A DNA stretch of 33,325 nucleotides. It comes from a virus. Every line of letters begins with the position of its first letter. The stretch's first letter is position 1. Of the stretch, positions 3,563 to 32,557 are shown piece by piece. The position numbers and the translations under genes were made by a program. The stretch lies in the IMG/VR virus record IMGVR_UViG_3300031673_000282, positions 1-33,325 of that record; one strand, 5' to 3'. A model generated the notes under the pieces. That model was not told where the DNA came from and made no database searches. It saw only the letters and a list, made by a program, of their open reading frames with translations.

Positions 3563-4063
3563 TTGGCTGTAGGAGATTATGACAAGACCACATTTGTTGA
3601 CGGCGGACCCCCCGGAATTAGCGCGGATCGACTCAACAACAACGAGAACAAAACCAATGAACTGGACAAAACGGTAGAGTCGCATCTTAGCGATTATGCG
3701 ACGTTTAAAACCGAAGTTGGTTCAAACGTAAAGATATTGGAGTTAGATTTTTTAGACCTACTCATAGCCCGTGACTTGGAAAGTCTGTCCACAGACATGG
3801 ATGCCGGTTACTGGTGGGACACTCTTGCCGATGCTACCAAAATACAAAGTATAACTGGCGCATCTGTAAGTGGAGGAAAAATAATTACAACGGCAGATAC
3901 CAGCGAAGTAACCTGGAAAGGGCATGATGTAGGGTTTTTAACAAATAAAGTTACTTTCTATCAAAAACGCACCAAAACAAGTGATATTGCACCGGTTGAT
4001 GCTAGTGCAACTGCCGGAGATAGTTTGCTAAGCGTAAAAGCAGCAACTATTACAATATCTTAA
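3563..4063 (+). CDS. Hypothetical tail fibre-like protein
   Basis: 166 residues from TTG at 3563, with a Shine-Dalgarno site (TAGGGGG) just upstream. The N-terminus has FVDGGPPGISADRLNNNENKTNELD, the kind of segment that starts many phage tail-fibre or neck-appendage proteins (residues given here as a description, not a database match). The C-terminus is beta-rich. It ends ten bases before the avd remnant. It is short for a fibre, so it may be truncated, possibly by the rearrangement that damaged the neighbouring DGR genes. Confidence 0.5.
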   Translation: MAVGDYDKTTFVDGGPPGISADRLNNNENKTNELDKTVESHLSDYATFKTEVGSNVKILELDFLDLLIARDLESLSTDMDAGYWWDTLADATKIQSITGASVSGGKIITTADTSEVTWKGHDVGFLTNKVTFYQKRTKTSDIAPVDASATAGDSLLSVKAATITIS

Positions 4064-4072
4064 AGGTGCTAT

Positions 4073-4390
4073 ATGTCACGACAATATAATCAGGGTAAAG
4101 AAAACGAATTAACCGTACTTATAAAAGCAAAAGACCTAATAAGGTATACTTTTAATATCACTGACAGTAAAAAGTTTCCTAAGAAAGCACGATTTACTTT
4201 TGTTAATCGACTGCAAGATAAAACATTAACGGTTTACGAAAACTTATTAGAAGCAAATGAAATATTCCCTGCAAATTATACTGAAAAAGAAGAACGAAGA
4301 AAGTTACAAGCTAGGGCTTTGTCTATAATAAAACACACATTTTCCCTTTGCGTAACGGTGTTGATTTTCTTGGTTTTCATACCTACTTAA
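4073..4390 (+). pseudogene. avd: Truncated avd (DGR accessory four-helix-bundle protein), joined to RT remnant
   Basis: The first ~83 codons match the Avd / four-helix-bundle accessory protein of diversity-generating retroelements: VLIKAKDLIRYTF, then KKFPKKARFTFVNRLQD, then VYENLLEANEIF and EERRKLQARALS. Avd normally has ~120-130 residues and binds the DGR reverse transcriptase. After about base 4320 the homology stops and the frame runs into DNA that encodes the end of a reverse transcriptase in another frame, giving a nonsense tail (FSLCVTVLIFLVFIPT). An upstream AAAGGTG can act as ribosome site. It is almost certainly non-functional because the last helix is missing. Confidence 0.85.
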
Positions 4391-4641
4391 CTGAAACTGG
4401 CAAGGTAATAAGAAAACTAAGGCAAAATAGTAAGAACCGTATGAGAAGGAAAATAAAGAAGTTTAAGGGGTTGCACGATACGGGCAAAATTACTCTGGAA
4501 GCTATTGACCACAGCTTCCAGAGTTGGTTGGGCCATGCTAGTCATGGCAATTGTTACCGTCTTATTAAAAAGATGAATGGATATTATCAAAGTGTCTTTA
4601 AGGAGGACGGTTTAAATGGCAAAGGCAATAACAAGCCTTAA
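4324..4641 (+). pseudogene. C-terminal fragment of DGR reverse transcriptase
   Basis: This frame encodes NKTHIFPLRNGVDFLGFHTY, then an arginine/lysine-rich helix (RKLRQNSKNRMRRKIKKF) and SFQSWLGHASHGNCYRL. These belong to the thumb and C-terminal region of DGR group reverse transcriptases. The palm domain with the catalytic YxDD motif is absent, so only the last ~100 of the usual ~350 residues remain. The fragment starts directly where the avd homology ends (~4320-4330). One deletion therefore removed the end of avd, most of the RT and whatever lay between them, which in the common DGR order includes the template repeat. The first possible start is TTG at 4348; the end overlaps the next gene. 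Confidence 0.85.
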
Positions 4642-6109
4642 TGTTGGGGCTAAAATAAAGCTAGGCACTTATAAAGTTGAGAACAGCACTGTATTACCGA
4701 TTATTTGGCGCATTATAGACAAAAATCACAACGGTTATCCTACTAATTCGGTTTCCCTGCTGACTGATAAAATTATTGATTTACGCGGTTTTGATGCAAA
4801 GGAACCAAGTAATGCTGATTCTAACCGTCAAAGTTATGGCAATAACCGTTACCGCACATCAAACCTGCGGCAATGGTTAAATAGCGGTGGGGCGGCGAGT
4901 ACCTGGTGGGCAGCACAAAACATTGCTGACGGTACAACGAATACTAATAACCACGATGCTACACCTGCTGATGCGGGCATGTCACAACCGACCGGGTATA
5001 ATGATATAGCAGGTTTCTTAAATAATTTTACCGCTGATGAATTGAGTAAAATCTTAGATACTACACTAACTGTAGCAAAAAACACGATCACTGATGGTGG
5101 TGGTAGTGAAAGTGTCACAGATAAGGTTTTCCTGCTATCAAATACTGAGGTGGGTCTTACTAATGAAAATAGTATCGCCGAAGGCACCCTGTTCGCGGCA
5201 TTTAGTAGTGATGCAAACAGGATAAGCTATGCTACGGCACAAGCTATCGCAAATACGCTTAGTAGCAGTAAACCGGCAAATGATACTACTGGTTGGTATT
5301 GGTGGTTAAGGACTCCGGACGCTGGCTACTCGCACTACGCCCGTCACGTCAACTCCGATGGCGCGTTGAACTACAACGACGCGTACTACGGTAACCTCGG
5401 CGTTCGTCCCGCTTTGAATCTGGAATCTGACATCTTGGTATCTGATACGGTAGATGCAGACGGGGCGTACACAATCGAATGGAATCAGCAGCCAACCATC
5501 GCACTAGTGGATGCAACATATCCTAACGTAAGGTTTACGGTATCTGATGCTGATGGTACAGTTGACCATGTTGATGTGTACGTAAACGGAATTCTGAAGC
5601 AAACATTCAATTCCGGTTTAGATGCTGAAATAGTCTATACAATTGATTATGCTGATTTAAACGAGGGTAACAATACGCTTGAAATAGTTGCTACCGATAA
5701 TTTAGGCGGCGAAGGAGCAATAACACTAACAATTAATAAGGCAGGCATAACTGTGCCTGCGGTCGGTACTAAAATAGTTGTACATGGTAAACAATACGAG
5801 ATTACAGGCATCGTGAACAATGGGGTTACGCTTGAACTAACACTGGATAGACCGCTAGAAGAAAGTGTGCTGGTTAATGAGTCAGTTGAAGTGCTGAATA
5901 GTTATGTAACTCCGGGTGCTGATTTAGGTAGCGGATTTACGGAATTAGATCATGTTAAGACTGTCTACAGCGGTGATCAAGTAGAAGAAAAATATGAACT
6001 TGCAGCAGAAGGTAGAACCGTTTCCTTTAAAGTAAATTCGAGTAAGGAGACCGGTAGCACGATGGAAATTAGCGAGCCGAAAGCAATATTCCAGTACAAG
6101 GAGGACTAA
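4616..6109 (+). CDS. DUF6273 / C-type-lectin-like receptor-binding protein, probable DGR target
   Basis: 497 residues, starting at ATG 4616 nine bases after AAGGAGG. Residues 1-270 match the DUF6273 pattern: GxxRYRTSNLRQWLNSGGAASTWW near 77-97, then GFLNNFTADEL, DKVFLLS, and GWYWWLRTPDAGY followed by a variable stretch ending GVRPALNL (~225-269). This fold is used as the diversified ligand-binding domain of DGR target proteins. The region after ~290 looks like an Ig-like beta-sandwich (VRFTVSDADGTVDHVDVYVNG) and further beta-rich domains. It probably sits at the tail tip and binds host surface structures. Unlike many DGR targets, the variable part is in the middle of the chain. Confidence 0.75.
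   Translation: MAKAITSLNVGAKIKLGTYKVENSTVLPIIWRIIDKNHNGYPTNSVSLLTDKIIDLRGFDAKEPSNADSNRQSYGNNRYRTSNLRQWLNSGGAASTWWAAQNIADGTTNTNNHDATPADAGMSQPTGYNDIAGFLNNFTADELSKILDTTLTVAKNTITDGGGSESVTDKVFLLSNTEVGLTNENSIAEGTLFAAFSSDANRISYATAQAIANTLSSSKPANDTTGWYWWLRTPDAGYSHYARHVNSDGALNYNDAYYGNLGVRPALNLESDILVSDTVDADGAYTIEWNQQPTIALVDATYPNVRFTVSDADGTVDHVDVYVNGILKQTFNSGLDAEIVYTIDYADLNEGNNTLEIVATDNLGGEGAITLTINKAGITVPAVGTKIVVHGKQYEITGIVNNGVTLELTLDRPLEESVLVNESVEVLNSYVTPGADLGSGFTELDHVKTVYSGDQVEEKYELAAEGRTVSFKVNSSKETGSTMEISEPKAIFQYKED
5312..5422 (+). other. DGR variable region (VR) within the target gene
   Basis: From ACT CCG GAC to CGT CCC GCT TTG AAT CTG. Between 5318 and 5401 most codons end in C and many are NNC (GGC, TAC, CAC, TAC, GCC, CAC, GTC, AAC, TCC, GGC, AAC, TAC, AAC, GAC, TAC, TAC, AAC), as expected when AAC codons of a template repeat are mutated at adenines. 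Flanking codons of the same gene mostly end in A or T. The 3' end (GGCGTTCGTCCCGC) is GC-rich like the initiation-of-mutagenic-homing segment of DGRs. No template repeat was seen in the window. That it is a VR is inference from codon pattern and neighbours. Confidence 0.65.
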
Positions 6110-7323: not shown

Positions 7324-8061
7324 ATGAAAAAGATTATGATCGACCCTGGCCATGGCGGCCGGGACCCTGGAGCAGTGGGACCGAGCGGAGTGCAGGAAAA
7401 GGTTATTACCTTGGCCGTAGTAAAACAGGTGGCCAGTATTTTAGCGCCGGTGGCCGAGGTCAAGCTTACTAGGGATGGAGACATTGCCCTGGGCGCAAAT
7501 TTAAGTGCTGATCTAACCGCTAGGACAAACGCGGCTAACAACTGGGGCGCCGATTGCTTTGTGAGTATCCACTGCAACAGCGCCGCTGATCATAGCGCCC
7601 ACGGCACGGAAACATATCATTATCCCGGCAGCACCCTGGGTGCTGCATTAGCCCAGGCGATCCACAGCAAGCTAATTCCCGCCCTTGGGCTGACGGATAG
7701 GGGCGTAAAAGAGGCTAATTTTGCTGTGCTCCGTCAAAGCAAATGCCCGGCGGCGCTGGTTGAACTAGCTTTTATCTCCAATGTGGCAGAGGAAAAGCTG
7801 TTAAACACTCCGGCATTCCAAGCCAAAGCAGCGCGGGCCGTTGCTGAGGGTATAGCTCAGTTTTTGGGATTGCGATTGCCGGCGGGGGCACTGGCACCGC
7901 CGGCGCTAAATCACGATACTGTGAAAATCCGTATTGGCAACCTTGTGCTGGATGGATTTATCAAGGACGGTAGCACCTATGCTCCAGTCCGGGGCGTTGC
8001 TGAGGCATTGGGACACAAGATTGCCTGGGACGAAAAAAATAAAATGGTGGTGATTGTTTAA
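7324..8061 (+). CDS. N-acetylmuramoyl-L-alanine amidase (endolysin)
   Basis: 245 residues, ATG preceded by AAAGGAG. The Amidase_3 fold is clear. MIDPGHGGRDPGAVG gives the first zinc histidine (H10), EKVITL the glutamate ligand (E25), SIHCNSA the second histidine (H83), and VELAFISN the catalytic glutamate (E147). It cleaves the amide between MurNAc and L-alanine in peptidoglycan to release progeny. The last ~50 residues (TVKIRIGNLVLDGFIKDGS through YAPVRGVAEALG) are a copper-amine-oxidase-like N-terminal domain repeat, which is common on wall enzymes of Peptococcaceae. The holin gene follows without a gap. Confidence 0.93.
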   Translation: MKKIMIDPGHGGRDPGAVGPSGVQEKVITLAVVKQVASILAPVAEVKLTRDGDIALGANLSADLTARTNAANNWGADCFVSIHCNSAADHSAHGTETYHYPGSTLGAALAQAIHSKLIPALGLTDRGVKEANFAVLRQSKCPAALVELAFISNVAEEKLLNTPAFQAKAARAVAEGIAQFLGLRLPAGALAPPALNHDTVKIRIGNLVLDGFIKDGSTYAPVRGVAEALGHKIAWDEKNKMVVIV

Positions 8062-8511
8062 ATGCTTACAATGAGCTTTTTCACAAATCTCTTAGGACAA
8101 GTTATCGCTCCGAAGGTTCTGGCTGCCTTGGGTGGCGCCCTGGCGCTTATCCTGGCGGACTTTGTATTGGGCGTACTAATTGCTATGAAACGAGGCGAAC
8201 TTGACGCCCGTAAACTACCTCAATTTTTGCAGACCAGTGTGCTGCCCTATATGGGATCTCTGGTGTTGCTGGCTTTGTTTGTTGGGGTATCACCGGTGCT
8301 TGAAACGATTTTCTTTACAGTAACTGCAGCCGTGGGGTTAAAATATTTAGCCGATATTAAAGATAAACTGGCTGGGATATTTACCGGACTTGTGCTGCAG
8401 AATCCTGTGGCAGTAAAAACGGCACCGGTACCAGCACAGGACCTATTAGCTAAACCCCAGGTACAGATTAACGATGCGCAGCCGCGTGCTCCGGATGCGT
8501 CAGCTCAATAA
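8062..8511 (+). CDS. Phage holin
   Basis: 149 residues from ATG 8062, directly after the amidase stop; ATG 8071 is an alternative start. Three hydrophobic segments are visible (AALGGALALILADFVLGVLI, PYMGSLVLLALFVGV, TIFFTVTAAVGLKYLADI) with a charged loop KRGELDARKLPQFLQT between the first two. This is the layout of the phage holin family often annotated next to Firmicutes amidases. It forms membrane lesions that let the endolysin reach the wall. The C-terminal ~40 residues are a hydrophilic P/A/Q-rich tail. A strong terminator follows. Confidence 0.85.
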   Translation: MLTMSFFTNLLGQVIAPKVLAALGGALALILADFVLGVLIAMKRGELDARKLPQFLQTSVLPYMGSLVLLALFVGVSPVLETIFFTVTAAVGLKYLADIKDKLAGIFTGLVLQNPVAVKTAPVPAQDLLAKPQVQINDAQPRAPDASAQ

Positions 8512-11943: not shown

Positions 11944-12815
11944 TACGAATAGGTCTAGGTCCACGGGAGAAGCAAAAGGTGGTTGACAAGTATCTGGGGG
12001 ACCATGAAATTAAAAAGATATACTGCTTTTATTTTAAAAAGTTTCCGAGCAAGTTTAAAGTGGACTGCGAGATTGAGTATATCGAGTATGCAGATATCGA
12101 AATGTATAAGTTTTTCTACCGGCTACTGGAGGAGGTAGACGAGAAAAGCCTGATCATCATGGATGGCTGCCTGCGGACGCAAAAACGGAGCGAACTAATT
12201 TATAACTGTGCCCACCATTATTTAAACCAAACACCGCACCGGATTGTCTTTGAGTTTTTCCCGATTATCGAATCTAAACAGGATTTTATGATTCTGCTCG
12301 ATTTTGAGAACAAAGGTAAATACAAGGGTAAATCTTTTGACTACGTTTATCTGCAGAACGAGGATATAAAAATCAAGCCTTTTAGGATCAAGCTGGACAC
12401 TATCAATGTGGAGATAACGGATAAGGATCGGGAGCGGTACGAAAAGAAAAAGGAACAGCTTTTTGATAACCTGGGCGAGAAGGACCCGGACACGGTACCA
12501 CGCACCCTGCAGCTCCTGGTCGGAGACATGAAACGGAAGGCGATTAAACCAGACAAGATGTATGTTGCGCGAAATAAGCGGTTTAAGTTGGGCAATGTGA
12601 AAACTTACGATGAAATAACCAAGCAGGGTGACTATATTGTCATTGATACTCATTACCGCCGGCTTAATTTTAATGACTTCTTAAAAACCACAAAGATAAA
12701 CAGGGTTAAATACCTCAGCACTATTTTACCAATTGATAATGTTATTATTACCGAGTTTTCAAAGTGGAAAGCGAGGCTTGATTCCATCTATGCTCAGGCA
12801 AACTTATATAAATAA
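11940..12815 (+). CDS. Unknown protein encoded between SNF2 helicase and PAPS reductase
   Basis: 291 residues, ATG overlapping the helicase TGA. The first ~120 residues look like an alpha/beta core (KIYCFYFKKFPSKF, KSLIIMDGCLRTQKRSELIYNCAHHYL, PHRIVFEFFPII). The C-terminal part is charged (DKDRERYEKKKEQLFDNLGEKDP). It is not recognised as any known family. The MDGCLR and CAHH segments could hold metal or nucleotide ligands, but this is speculation. Overlaps at both ends (four bases with the helicase, about 26 bases with the next gene) show tight coupling in the operon, so it probably belongs to the same complex. Confidence 0.75.
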   Translation: MIRIGLGPREKQKVVDKYLGDHEIKKIYCFYFKKFPSKFKVDCEIEYIEYADIEMYKFFYRLLEEVDEKSLIIMDGCLRTQKRSELIYNCAHHYLNQTPHRIVFEFFPIIESKQDFMILLDFENKGKYKGKSFDYVYLQNEDIKIKPFRIKLDTINVEITDKDRERYEKKKEQLFDNLGEKDPDTVPRTLQLLVGDMKRKAIKPDKMYVARNKRFKLGNVKTYDEITKQGDYIVIDTHYRRLNFNDFLKTTKINRVKYLSTILPIDNVIITEFSKWKARLDSIYAQANLYK

Positions 12816-13908
12816 GACCGTTTTAGATGCGGCCAGGGAGCGTATAGCCTATATATTCGACGAGTTTGAGAACATCATAGTATCTATCAGTGGTGGCAAA
12901 GATAGCACCGTTCTGGCCCACCTGGCTCTTCTGGAGGCCAACCGGCGCGGGCGTAAGGTTGGTATCTTTTTTCTGGACGAGGAAGTTGTTTATGACAGCA
13001 CAATCAAGCAGATTGAGTATGTGATGTCTATGTACCCGGAGAACGCAACCAAGTTGTGGCTGCAGGTTGAGTTTTACCTGACTAACGCGGCCAGCTTGAC
13101 CGAAAGCCAGTTGAAATGCTGGGAGCACGGTAAAAGCCATTTGTGGTTACGCAAAAAGAATCCGCAGGCCATTTGGCATAAACCGTGGGATCAGGCAAAG
13201 GAAACGGTTCGCGATAAAAACAAAGGTTTTGGATTTTACGATGCGCTGGAAAACTTCCAGAACTCCCGGGAGAATACCGCTTTCCTTGTTGGATTACGAG
13301 CCACCGAAAGCCCGAACCGGTGGAGGGCGGTGTCTAAAAATCCAGGTTACAAAGATGTCTTTTGGTGTACAAAAATGAAACACGGAAACGTGTCAATGTA
13401 CCCACTCTATGACTGGAACTTCCACGATGTCTGGAAGTACATTTATGATACCGGGCTGAAGTACTCCAAAATTTACGATTACATGCACAAGAAGGGTATG
13501 GGCATACAGGAGATCCGGGTTTCCAGCCTGATCCACGAGAAATCATTTAAGGCGCTAGTGGAGCTGCCGGAGTTTGAACCAAAAACCTATAATAGATTAC
13601 TGAAGCGGGTTAAGGGCATTAGCATCGGTAATCTGTACGGCAAAGACAGTAAGATGCTGAAGGTCCAAAAGCTGCCCAAAAACTTCAAGACGTGGCTGGA
13701 ATACCGTGACTTTTTACTGCAAACTTACCCGGACCAGGAGAAGAAACCAATATTTGAAAAGCGGTTTAAAAAGCACTTAGAGAATCGCTATGTGGCCCGT
13801 CAGCAATGCCGGCAACTGGTGCTAAATGATTACGAGAATAATCTACCGATTGATAATAAACCGGATCCCCGGGAAGCGACTATAAAGAAATGGAGGGAAT
13901 TGCTTTGA
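12790..13908 (+). CDS. PAPS-reductase-family ATP pyrophosphatase, IbrA-like (DUF3440)
   Basis: Start set at ATG 12790 (upstream codons overlap the previous gene without a better ribosome site). 372 residues. The PP-loop SISGGKDST (33-41) binds ATP, followed by LAHLALLEANRRGRKVGIFFLDEE. A conserved C-terminal half includes YPLYDWNFHDVWKYIYDTGLKYSKIYD and MGIQEIRVSSLIHEKSFKAL, as in IbrA/DUF3440 proteins. The wider family adenylates substrates for sulfur transfer (CysH, DndC). The adjacent ParB gene makes an IbrA-IbrB type pair. Substrate unknown; a DNA sulfur or base modification is inferred from context only. Confidence 0.82.
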   Translation: MLRQTYINKTVLDAARERIAYIFDEFENIIVSISGGKDSTVLAHLALLEANRRGRKVGIFFLDEEVVYDSTIKQIEYVMSMYPENATKLWLQVEFYLTNAASLTESQLKCWEHGKSHLWLRKKNPQAIWHKPWDQAKETVRDKNKGFGFYDALENFQNSRENTAFLVGLRATESPNRWRAVSKNPGYKDVFWCTKMKHGNVSMYPLYDWNFHDVWKYIYDTGLKYSKIYDYMHKKGMGIQEIRVSSLIHEKSFKALVELPEFEPKTYNRLLKRVKGISIGNLYGKDSKMLKVQKLPKNFKTWLEYRDFLLQTYPDQEKKPIFEKRFKKHLENRYVARQQCRQLVLNDYENNLPIDNKPDPREATIKKWRELL

Positions 13909-21341: not shown

Positions 21342-21447
21342 AAGGCGCGGCGGGGCCAGGCATGGCGCGGCGAGGCAAGGCATGGCGAGGCGGGGCAGGG
21401 CAAGGAACAGGGCTTGGCGGGGCATGGCACGGCGAGGCGAGGCGTGG
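21342..21447 (+). repeat. NNGGC pentamer array 1
   Basis: About 20 consecutive five-base units with invariant GGC and variable first two bases: AAGGC, GCGGC, GGGGC, CAGGC, ATGGC, GCGGC, GAGGC and so on, with a few interruptions. The five-base period shifts the reading frame at each unit, so it is not coding. It lies between two early genes, and two shorter arrays occur at 22147 and 22244. Confidence 0.85.
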
Positions 21448-21470: not shown

Positions 21471-22136
21471 ATGGAACAATATGCAGTTACTTTAACCGGA
21501 TTAACTCCGCTTCTGATGCACAATGACAATCTAATGTTTAGTGAAAAAATAAAAGCATGGCAAAAAGATCCTGAGAATAAGGCACTCAGCGTAGCCGGTG
21601 ACGACCGTAGCCCGGCTTGGACTTGGATTGGATACCTTTACCATGACAATAAGGTTTTGGGTGTTTCCAGTGACAATATTATGACCATGCTCCGCGAAGG
21701 TGGGGCTAAGGTTATTGCCAAGGGCAAGGAAACTTATAAAAAGCAGACACAATCTGGCATCATGCTCGACCAGCAACAATTTAACTTGGTGGTAAACGGG
21801 GAGCTTATCTCGGTAGACAACATTAAACCGCTTATAGGTAATACCGACTTTAACAAGCATATTGAAACCGTGGAAGACCTTAATTTTGAGCTGCTGGTTA
21901 AGCGGGCCAAAATTGGACAGGCCAAACACATCAGGGTACGACCTATGTTCAGAACATGGACACTTACTGGCTCGTTAACTGTGCTGGATTCCGAATTAAC
22001 AGGACTTAATGAGGAAACATTGAGGCTGATACTTAATCAGGCAGGGGCGTTGTGTGGTTTGTGTGATTGGCGACCATCATGTAAAAGCTCAGGAACATTC
22101 GGCAAGTTTAGCCCCGAGATAAAAAGAATTGGATAA
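21471..22136 (+). CDS. Conserved phage early protein, possible RAMP/Cas7-like fold
   Basis: ATG 21471 follows AAAGGAG and the pentamer array. 221 residues. It starts YAVTLTGLTPLLMHNDN, has AWTWIGYLYHD and GVSSDNIMTMLREGG, and ends in a CGLCDWRPSCKSSGTFGKFSPE motif. The overall pattern is found in early-region proteins of many Gram-positive phages. The opening TPLLMHN resembles the start of RAMP (Cas7-like) RNA/ssDNA-binding proteins; this is only a resemblance. It lies near recombination genes and is flanked by NNGGC arrays on both sides. Confidence 0.7.
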   Translation: MEQYAVTLTGLTPLLMHNDNLMFSEKIKAWQKDPENKALSVAGDDRSPAWTWIGYLYHDNKVLGVSSDNIMTMLREGGAKVIAKGKETYKKQTQSGIMLDQQQFNLVVNGELISVDNIKPLIGNTDFNKHIETVEDLNFELLVKRAKIGQAKHIRVRPMFRTWTLTGSLTVLDSELTGLNEETLRLILNQAGALCGLCDWRPSCKSSGTFGKFSPEIKRIG

Positions 22137-22146
22137 GTAACGAGGA

Positions 22147-22205
22147 ACGCGGCAAGGCATGGCGAGGCGTGGCGGGGTCGGGCAAGTCCAGGCAAGGCAA
22201 GGGCA
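22147..22205 (+). repeat. NNGGC pentamer array 2
   Basis: GCGGC, AAGGC, ATGGC, GAGGC, GTGGC, GGGGT, CGGGC, AAGTC, CAGGC, AAGGC, AAGGG. It shows the same five-base period as array 1, decaying at its end. Confidence 0.75.
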
Positions 22206-22207
22206 GT

Positions 22208-22236
22208 TTGGCTGGTTCTGCTCAAAAATCAGCCAC
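22208..22236. other. Hairpin between pentamer arrays
   Basis: TTGGCTG / CAGCCA: TGGCTG (22209-22214) pairs with CAGCCA (22230-22235). It separates arrays 2 and 3; no T run. Confidence 0.4.
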
Positions 22237-22243
22237 CAGTAAC

Positions 22244-22307
22244 CATGGCCAGGCATGTCTTTGCACGGCGAGGCGATGTCAGGCATGGTAAGGAATGGCA
22301 TGGCGAA
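22244..22307 (+). repeat. NNGGC pentamer array 3
   Basis: ATGGC, CAGGC, ATGTC, (TTTGC), ACGGC, GAGGC, (GATGTC), AGGC, ATGGT, AAGGA, ATGGC, ATGGC. More degenerate than array 1. Confidence 0.65.
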
Positions 22308-22336
22308 GTAAATAAATACAGGGGAGGTGAAAACCA

Positions 22337-30251: not shown

Positions 30252-30589
30252 ACACTGCAAATTGCCACATGCGCGAAGCCCTAACGCCGGAGCAGGTCCC
30301 TAAAATGTTGGAGTTTTTGACCTCCCTGAGCGAGCTAAGTAAGTTTGCGCCTGAGCCTGATGTCGGGGCTTTCGTCAACAAGTACCGGGAGATCAAAACC
30401 GGCTACACTTACAATTTGGGCAACAAGCACAAGCGGGGCAAAAAACCAAAAGTGATTATGATGTGCCTCTGCTGCGGCGCCAAGTTTAAACGGGATAATA
30501 AAAACCCACTAAAGATATATTGCAACTATAGTTGCTCAACGAAGCACAGAAACGCTGTATATGGGGCGGAAAGGCAGGGGGTAAAGTGA
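30248..30589 (+). CDS. Zinc-finger hypothetical protein
   Basis: 113 residues, ATG overlapping the DUF5131 stop. Helical N-terminus (LTPEQVPKMLEFLTSLSELSKF) and a C-terminal treble-clef-like zinc finger: CLCCGAKFKRDN...YCNYSCSTKHRN (C73, C75/C76, C91, C95). Its stop overlaps the next GTG. Function unknown; probably acts with the downstream enzyme. Confidence 0.6.
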   Translation: MNTANCHMREALTPEQVPKMLEFLTSLSELSKFAPEPDVGAFVNKYREIKTGYTYNLGNKHKRGKKPKVIMMCLCCGAKFKRDNKNPLKIYCNYSCSTKHRNAVYGAERQGVK

Positions 30590-31623
30590 CACCAGAACAA
30601 GAATTCAGGCTCAAACAACAATGGCCTTACGAGGACAAGGTAGCACTTGCTATTGATTTGGCGCGTGATTTTTACAAAAGGGTAAATGGTAATGTATTTT
30701 GCTCGGTTGGCGGGTTAGATAGCCTGACGTTAATAAAATTTTTACGAAAGTATGTCAGCAAGGATATTCCCGGGGTATCCGTATCAAACTTGGAGGATTT
30801 AAGTATCCAAAGAATACATCGTCTATTAGATAACATGGTAATCCTAAAACCTTACAAAACCAAAGTGCAGGTCATTAAAGATTATGGATACCCGGTTATA
30901 AGCAAGGATAAAGCCGGTAAAATACAGCTACTACAAAATCCTACTGAGAAAAATAAAACTGTACGCCATGCAATTATGACAGGTGAAACAGGTAAACAGG
31001 GTGGTTATCGTAAAGGCACACGGATGCAGTTACCGAAGAAATGGCTAGAATTGTTTGGGGGACCAGAAAACGAAAAGTACGGCACTAATTACAAAACTGC
31101 GCCGTTTAAGGTATCGCCAAATTGTTGCTATTACATGAAAGAAAAGCCCGCTGACGATTGGGCCAAGAAAAATAAATTAAATCCATATATGGGACTCATG
31201 GCCAGCGAAGGCGGACAGAGACAAAAGGCCCTAATGAAACACGGATGCAATTATTACGGAAAAACAGTAACCAGAAGTTGTCCTTTTGCAACATTTAAAC
31301 GTAACGATATTTTACAACTAGCTATCGACCTAGAAATTCCTGTGCCTGAAATCTATGGAGAAATAGCCATGCAACCTGACGGAACGCTAGAAACTACCAG
31401 GGCTAAGAGGACAGGATGTAGTATGTGTGGGTTTGGCATCCACATCGAAAAGCGGCCGCACAGGTTTGATCGACTCAGAGAGGATAACCCAAAGGAGTGG
31501 GTGTTCTGGATGTATAAAATGGGTTGGGGTAAGGTTTTGGATTACATCGGGGTGGCATGGGAAGATGAGTACCAGGAAGAACGTCAGTTGACGCTGGACT
31601 TCACGCCGGGGGTGACACTGTGA
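30586..31623 (+). CDS. PAPS-reductase-family protein (second copy type)
   Basis: GTG 30586 with AGGCAGGGGG upstream; 345 residues. The PP-loop region FCSVGGLDSLTLIKFL (38-53) shows S-x-G-x-D-S with leucine in place of the usual lysine. NCCYYMKEKPADDW and SCPFATFKRNDILQLAIDLEIP are PAPS-reductase-like blocks of phage enzymes, and TGCSMCGFGIHIEKRPHRF gives a CxxC. These occur in many phage genomes with unknown substrate. It is distinct from the IbrA-like protein at 12790. Overlaps the next gene by four bases. Confidence 0.82.
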   Translation: MTPEQEFRLKQQWPYEDKVALAIDLARDFYKRVNGNVFCSVGGLDSLTLIKFLRKYVSKDIPGVSVSNLEDLSIQRIHRLLDNMVILKPYKTKVQVIKDYGYPVISKDKAGKIQLLQNPTEKNKTVRHAIMTGETGKQGGYRKGTRMQLPKKWLELFGGPENEKYGTNYKTAPFKVSPNCCYYMKEKPADDWAKKNKLNPYMGLMASEGGQRQKALMKHGCNYYGKTVTRSCPFATFKRNDILQLAIDLEIPVPEIYGEIAMQPDGTLETTRAKRTGCSMCGFGIHIEKRPHRFDRLREDNPKEWVFWMYKMGWGKVLDYIGVAWEDEYQEERQLTLDFTPGVTL

Positions 31624-32435: not shown

Positions 32436-32446
32436 CAGTTAATATT

Positions 32447-32531
32447 TGGGTGGTGGCGGAATTGGTATACACTACCGGCGGTACCTAATCCGCAATATAG
32501 GCCATTGCAGGTTCGAATCCTGCCCGCCCAA
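32447..32531 (+). tRNA. tRNA-like element 2 (non-canonical)
   Basis: 85 bases. Acceptor TGGGTGG (32447-32453) pairs fully with CCGCCCA (32524-32530). T-arm GCAGG-TTCGAAT-CCTGC (32507-32523) is perfect, and the D-loop GAATTGGTATA is normal for a Leu-type tRNA. The anticodon arm is abnormal: GCGG (32478-32481) / CCGC (32490-32493) with an eight-base loop that lacks the usual U33. No encoded CCA. Shares its 5' and 3' parts and the downstream AAT(A/C)AATTTTATA with element 1. Degenerate tRNA or a tRNA mimic. Confidence 0.5.
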
Positions 32532-32557
32532 TCAATTTTATAAGGGGGGAATAAACC

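Follow-up and report, generated by a model that had tools for sequence, protein, structure and literature searches.

What became of the diversification system that once stood beside a putative receptor-binding gene in a 33,325-base virus contig (the window), and was it lost at one stroke? The DGR of Bordetella phage BPP-1 acts on a C-lectin receptor-binding protein, as the phage DGR of the window would have done, but it is active and has the order target-avd-TR-RT, unlike the locus studied here. In the window, pieces of a DGR cassette lie in cassette order and on the cassette strand beside a VR-bearing target gene, and an integrase gene is present. Considering the evidence below, we propose, with a probability of roughly 0.88, that this is the DGR of a temperate phage and that a single deletion of about 1.15-1.36 kb inactivated it in cis.

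Remnants of the cassette and the target gene

The ORF at positions 4073-4390 is recognised as a DGR Avd by phrog_3206 (E = 3.1e-11) and by NCBIfam NF033474 (E = 8.5e-6), the latter match falling below the cut-off. The avd remnant within it (4073-4333, plus strand) comprises the start codon and the first 87 codons. Alignment with Avd proteins (24 relatives) placed the homology at residues 1-87, ending at K87 (codon 4331-4333), after which the ORF extends in the wrong frame to 4390. The full Avd is absent, as that of relatives is about 45 residues longer. The preliminary description had identified the Avd-like coding correctly, and the alignment corrected its extent from about 83 codons, ending near 4320, to 87 codons ending at 4333. 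The cassette is preceded by a tail-fibre-like gene (3563-4063, plus strand), so named from weak matches to tail fibre families of PHROG (phrog_10153, E = 1.6e-7); intact relatives, too, have tail genes immediately before avd.

The DGR RT remnant (4327-4641, plus strand) holds the last 104 codons of the C-terminal part and the stop codon. In the family search this frame matches phage DGR RTs at their C-terminus (phrog_1423, positions 355-444, E = 7.5e-26). In the protein alignment its identity with intact RTs reaches 65%, and the homology with relatives begins at a conserved N-K-T motif at 4327. The phrog_1423 match and the alignment agree with the earlier reading of RT C-terminal coding in a frame other than that of Avd, and comparison of the 4073-4641 frames with complete DGR loci confirmed their homology to Avd and to DGR RT. 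The loss of the RT palm domain (YxDD) was borne out as well, with no RVT_1 match anywhere in the 33,325-base contig. A search of both strands of the window for a TR compatible with the target VR was negative. The frames do not match, so the stumps do not yield a protein that combines both parts, and a functional Avd-RT fusion was ruled out. The RT tail also holds a TTG-started 97-aa ORF.

The target gene (4616-6109, plus strand) starts inside the RT end, consistent with the earlier statement that it adjoins the remnant. Its ribosome-binding site is retained within the RT tail as an AAGGAGG Shine-Dalgarno-like site (4600-4606, plus strand), a layout shared with intact relatives. The gene encodes an N-terminal DUF6273 (C-type lectin-like) domain (PF19789, E = 6.7e-41) and an Ig-like domain (Big_7, E = 3.7e-5, above its cut-off), which is the architecture of tentaclins (PMC10743442). 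The product is thus a putative tentaclin-type receptor-binding protein, and its reading frame is open and apparently intact. In the AlphaFold model, pLDDT is mostly 85-98 over residues 1-290, with 69-84 at about 101-130; the strands of the VR region (229-270) lie in the confident part, those of the Ig-like domain span 285-379, and no reliable prediction extends beyond residue 380. The best match among solved structures was the IgA peptidase 9qa6 (E = 2.6e-14), which is similar in sequence too. A search of solved structures for a C-lectin fold match did not independently confirm the fold, and the probable lectin assignment follows Pfam and the tentaclin study (PMC10743442).

The former VR (5311-5414, plus strand, approximate boundaries) was located by alignment to 12 TR/VR pairs and comparison with 33 distinct TRs. 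It keeps the expected pattern, and its 3' end is well conserved. Against a consensus of foreign TRs, its own TR being gone, it differed in 8 of 24 TR-adenine columns and in 5 of 41 columns elsewhere (P = 0.056), so that the A-bias is only suggestive. The window fragment showed no second VR.

Elsewhere in the window, purine-rich degenerate repeats (GGCAAGGCATGGCGAGGC-like) occupy the gaps on either side of a gene ending at 22136 (21344-21447 and about 22140-22310), two PAPS-reductase-like genes (12733-13908 and 30532-31623) occur in the one phage, and a tRNA-Gly gene (anticodon ACC, 32446-32533) lies near the right end.

Native gene order, junction and age of the loss

Phages nd12 and nd4, IMG/VR contigs and Bacillota genomes all yielded relatives of the locus. 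Nearly all close relatives carry a tail gene, avd, TR, RT and a DUF6273 target in that order, which contradicts the order target, avd, TR, RT assumed in the preliminary description; in some more distant RT loci (L024 and L027-L030, for example) the VR lies upstream of the TR. The target start of intact loci overlaps the RT end or closely follows it, with the Shine-Dalgarno site in the RT tail. TR/VR pairs measured about 80-131 bases, with mismatches almost only at template adenines. This held for the majority of loci both in the first set and among the 79 surveyed. These 79 came from an alignment query of IMG/VR, a target-only scan having given none. Scans with Avd and with the baseplate gene, a megablast search of phages with 20 kb of the window as query and a search for the exact RT-tail DNA in IMG/VR gave no match, and near-identical records may be absent from the collections searched. 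In the Geobacillus proteiniphilus locus L017, a TR-like stretch (7985-8135) adjoins an intact RT; its matches in that genome were itself and a 16-base hit, the adjacent DUF6273 target was unmatched, and the accessory protein is unlike the usual Avd.

The deletion junction lies at 4327-4333 (plus strand), where AATAAAA is common to the avd-side and the RT-side homologies. The two homologies had been described as a few bases apart; they are indeed this close, but they overlap by 7 bases and no gap separates them. In relatives' loci with both genes, 1,148-1,356 bases lie between the equivalent fusion points. A single deletion would be a sufficient and the simplest account of the locus, and the 7-base overlap fits microhomology joining. 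The earlier claim of a single deletion reaching from avd into the RT is supported: the missing span has the expected size, and the stumps show no sign of decay. Compared with intact relatives, the window lacks the last third of avd, the whole TR and about the first 70% of the RT, and its stumps are joined out of frame over 7 shared bases. The deletion probably arose at a short direct repeat, either by illegitimate recombination or by slippage during replication. With RT and TR lost in cis, mutagenic retrohoming would stop and the VR would be frozen at its last state, and the target protein could still be produced. Part of the RT tail may have been kept because the ribosome-binding site of the target sits in it.

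The junction had also been considered precise enough to reconstruct. In the window its position can be narrowed to about 7 bases and no further, since protein identity with the nearest relatives is about 50% for Avd and 65% for the RT tail. The searches gave no intact sibling above this level of about 50-65%, which leaves the ancestral sequence and the point of joining approximate. For direct repeats at the junction, the relatives of the window are likewise too distant, and no repeated word of at least 10 bases was present around the junction in the window.

Both stumps look undecayed. There were 0 stop codons in their 87 (avd) and 104 (RT) codons, and, counting substitutions only, the probability of no stop reaches 0.05 at 10% divergence. 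The stumps broke 0 of 9 (avd) and 0 of 14 (RT) columns with at least 90% conservation, and homologues break 0.41 and 1.04 such columns on average, respectively. This is consistent with a recent loss, though only as a bound, as the conserved columns are few. The suggestion that the system was caught just after its loss therefore agrees with these data, within the limit that stop-free stumps imply less than about 10% neutral divergence (P = 0.05).

Recurrent losses in the target family

In a target tree of 76 dereplicated loci, 61 were intact by an automatic rule (RT span above 850 bases), 10 had a target without a trace of avd or RT, 4 were scars and 1 (L053) was unclassified. The scars (the window, L051, L035 and L097) occupy four separate places in the tree. 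DGR loss is thus recurrent in the DUF6273 target family, with at least three further separate deletions besides that of the window. Scar L051, next to the Geobacillus locus L017, has 41 codons of Avd fused to the last 16 codons of RT; the nd4-like scar L097 has lost avd and TR and retains the RT tail; and scar L035 keeps avd and TR and has lost 834 bases (278 codons) of RT in frame. The kept RT tail ranges from about 8 to 104 codons, and in all four scars it includes the RT 3' end and, within it, the target's ribosome-binding site. The nearest row to the window in the tree is L031, which has no DGR. Targets without avd, RT or an upstream TR were seen in L031, L037, L042, L045, L054, L085, L093, L105, L107 and L108; these ten DGR-free loci may represent either loss or ancestral absence. 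Label counts on the tree showed no clear difference from shuffled labels.

The deletion mechanism is readable base by base in L035, as judged from its alignment with the intact locus L033, to which it is 99.6% identical over 5,148 bases. Relative to L033, the 834-bp RT gap of L035 is flanked by 12-bp direct repeats, two copies of AAATATAAAGAA, and here an event of the same kind can be reconstructed exactly. The VR of L035 differs from its own TR at 20 positions, all of them adenine in the TR (20/20), and 18 of the 23 differences between L035 and L033 on the right-hand side fall in the VR. Across L035 5551-6799, the VRs are strongly different from those of L033 and the remainder is almost identical. 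Downstream of its target, L035 lacks a further stretch of about 1.66 kb that L033 has, so that an amplification or assembly fault there keeps a small probability.

Rival readings and relation to known systems

Another DGR, sited in the host or in the part of the phage that the record lacks, might go on diversifying the target in trans, but we consider this unlikely. Degenerate loci diversified in trans have been reported in Thiohalocapsa (PMC10907252), and a distal VR occurs near a mutated RT in Pseudogulbenkiania (PMC3521204). The conserved 3' end of the window VR also counts for such action, and the record is a 33-kb fragment that lacks head genes, so that RT and TR may sit elsewhere in phage or host. 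However, searches for a TR that would fit the window VR were negative in the window and, using an exact compatible pattern, also in IMG/VR contigs, and the closest TRs compared would need at least 11 non-A changes.

An origin of the join in assembly or amplification, with an intact DGR in the phage population, we regard as very improbable. The record is a single virus contig, which counts for an artefact, but the stumps stand in correct order and orientation, the 7 shared bases are far below usual assembler word lengths, the lack of a repeated word of at least 10 bases near the junction speaks against it, and three comparable scars occur in other assemblies. An older loss, with the RT tail conserved for a role of its own (the translation signals of the target or the peptide of the 97-aa ORF), is quite unlikely. 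It would agree with the open, conserved tail and with the retention of the RT 3' end and ribosome-binding site in 4/4 scars; the avd stump, however, has no apparent role of this kind and is equally undecayed (0/9 violations), and since the length of the tail differs so much among the scars (about 8-104 codons), most of it is not needed. One deletion in cis remains our preferred reading.

The closest known system is the tentaclin DGR of phages nd4 and nd12 (PMC10743442), which shares with the window Avd, RT, a DUF6273/C-lectin target, Ig-like domains and gene order. The proteins of the two are homologous, and the VR lies towards the target 5' end in both. The nd4/nd12 system is intact, with TR and RT and a reported second target (PMC10743442), whereas the TR and most of the RT of the window are deleted. 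DGRs inactivated by nonsense mutation, frameshift or insertion were described in 2012 in the DiGReF survey (PMC3521204); as in the window, the RT was recently inactivated and the target remains. Those cases keep their VR/TR repeats, whereas the deletion in the window removes the TR, the RT core and the avd end together. Degenerate DGR loci, some served in trans, were described in 2024 (PMC10907252). Thiohalocapsa PB-PSB1 has target loci without key machinery, as the window does, but it is bacterial, with several loci, some of which are best explained by a DGR acting in trans (PMC10907252); no helper DGR of this kind was found for the window, by TR patterns in the window and IMG/VR. The window is therefore a well-resolved new case of an already published phenomenon, since inactivated and trans-acting DGRs are known (PMC3521204; PMC10907252). 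It is set apart by a single deletion that takes the TR, the RT core and part of avd, and by its place in a recurrent series. A limited literature search found no paper on such deletions in the DUF6273 target family.

How, and how often, phages abandon targeted hypermutation is poorly documented. The window and the three further scars form a small natural series of DGR losses within a single target family, and the pair L033 (intact) and L035 (RT deleted) offers a ready comparison of a diversifying with a frozen binding protein. A tentative and rather doubtful idea is that DGR loss through deletion between short direct repeats serves tentaclin phages as a lock-in step that recurs and is selected. 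If this were true, a lineage would diversify its binding protein and find a good receptor match, after which deletion of the mutator would be favoured, in a form that keeps the translation start of the target.
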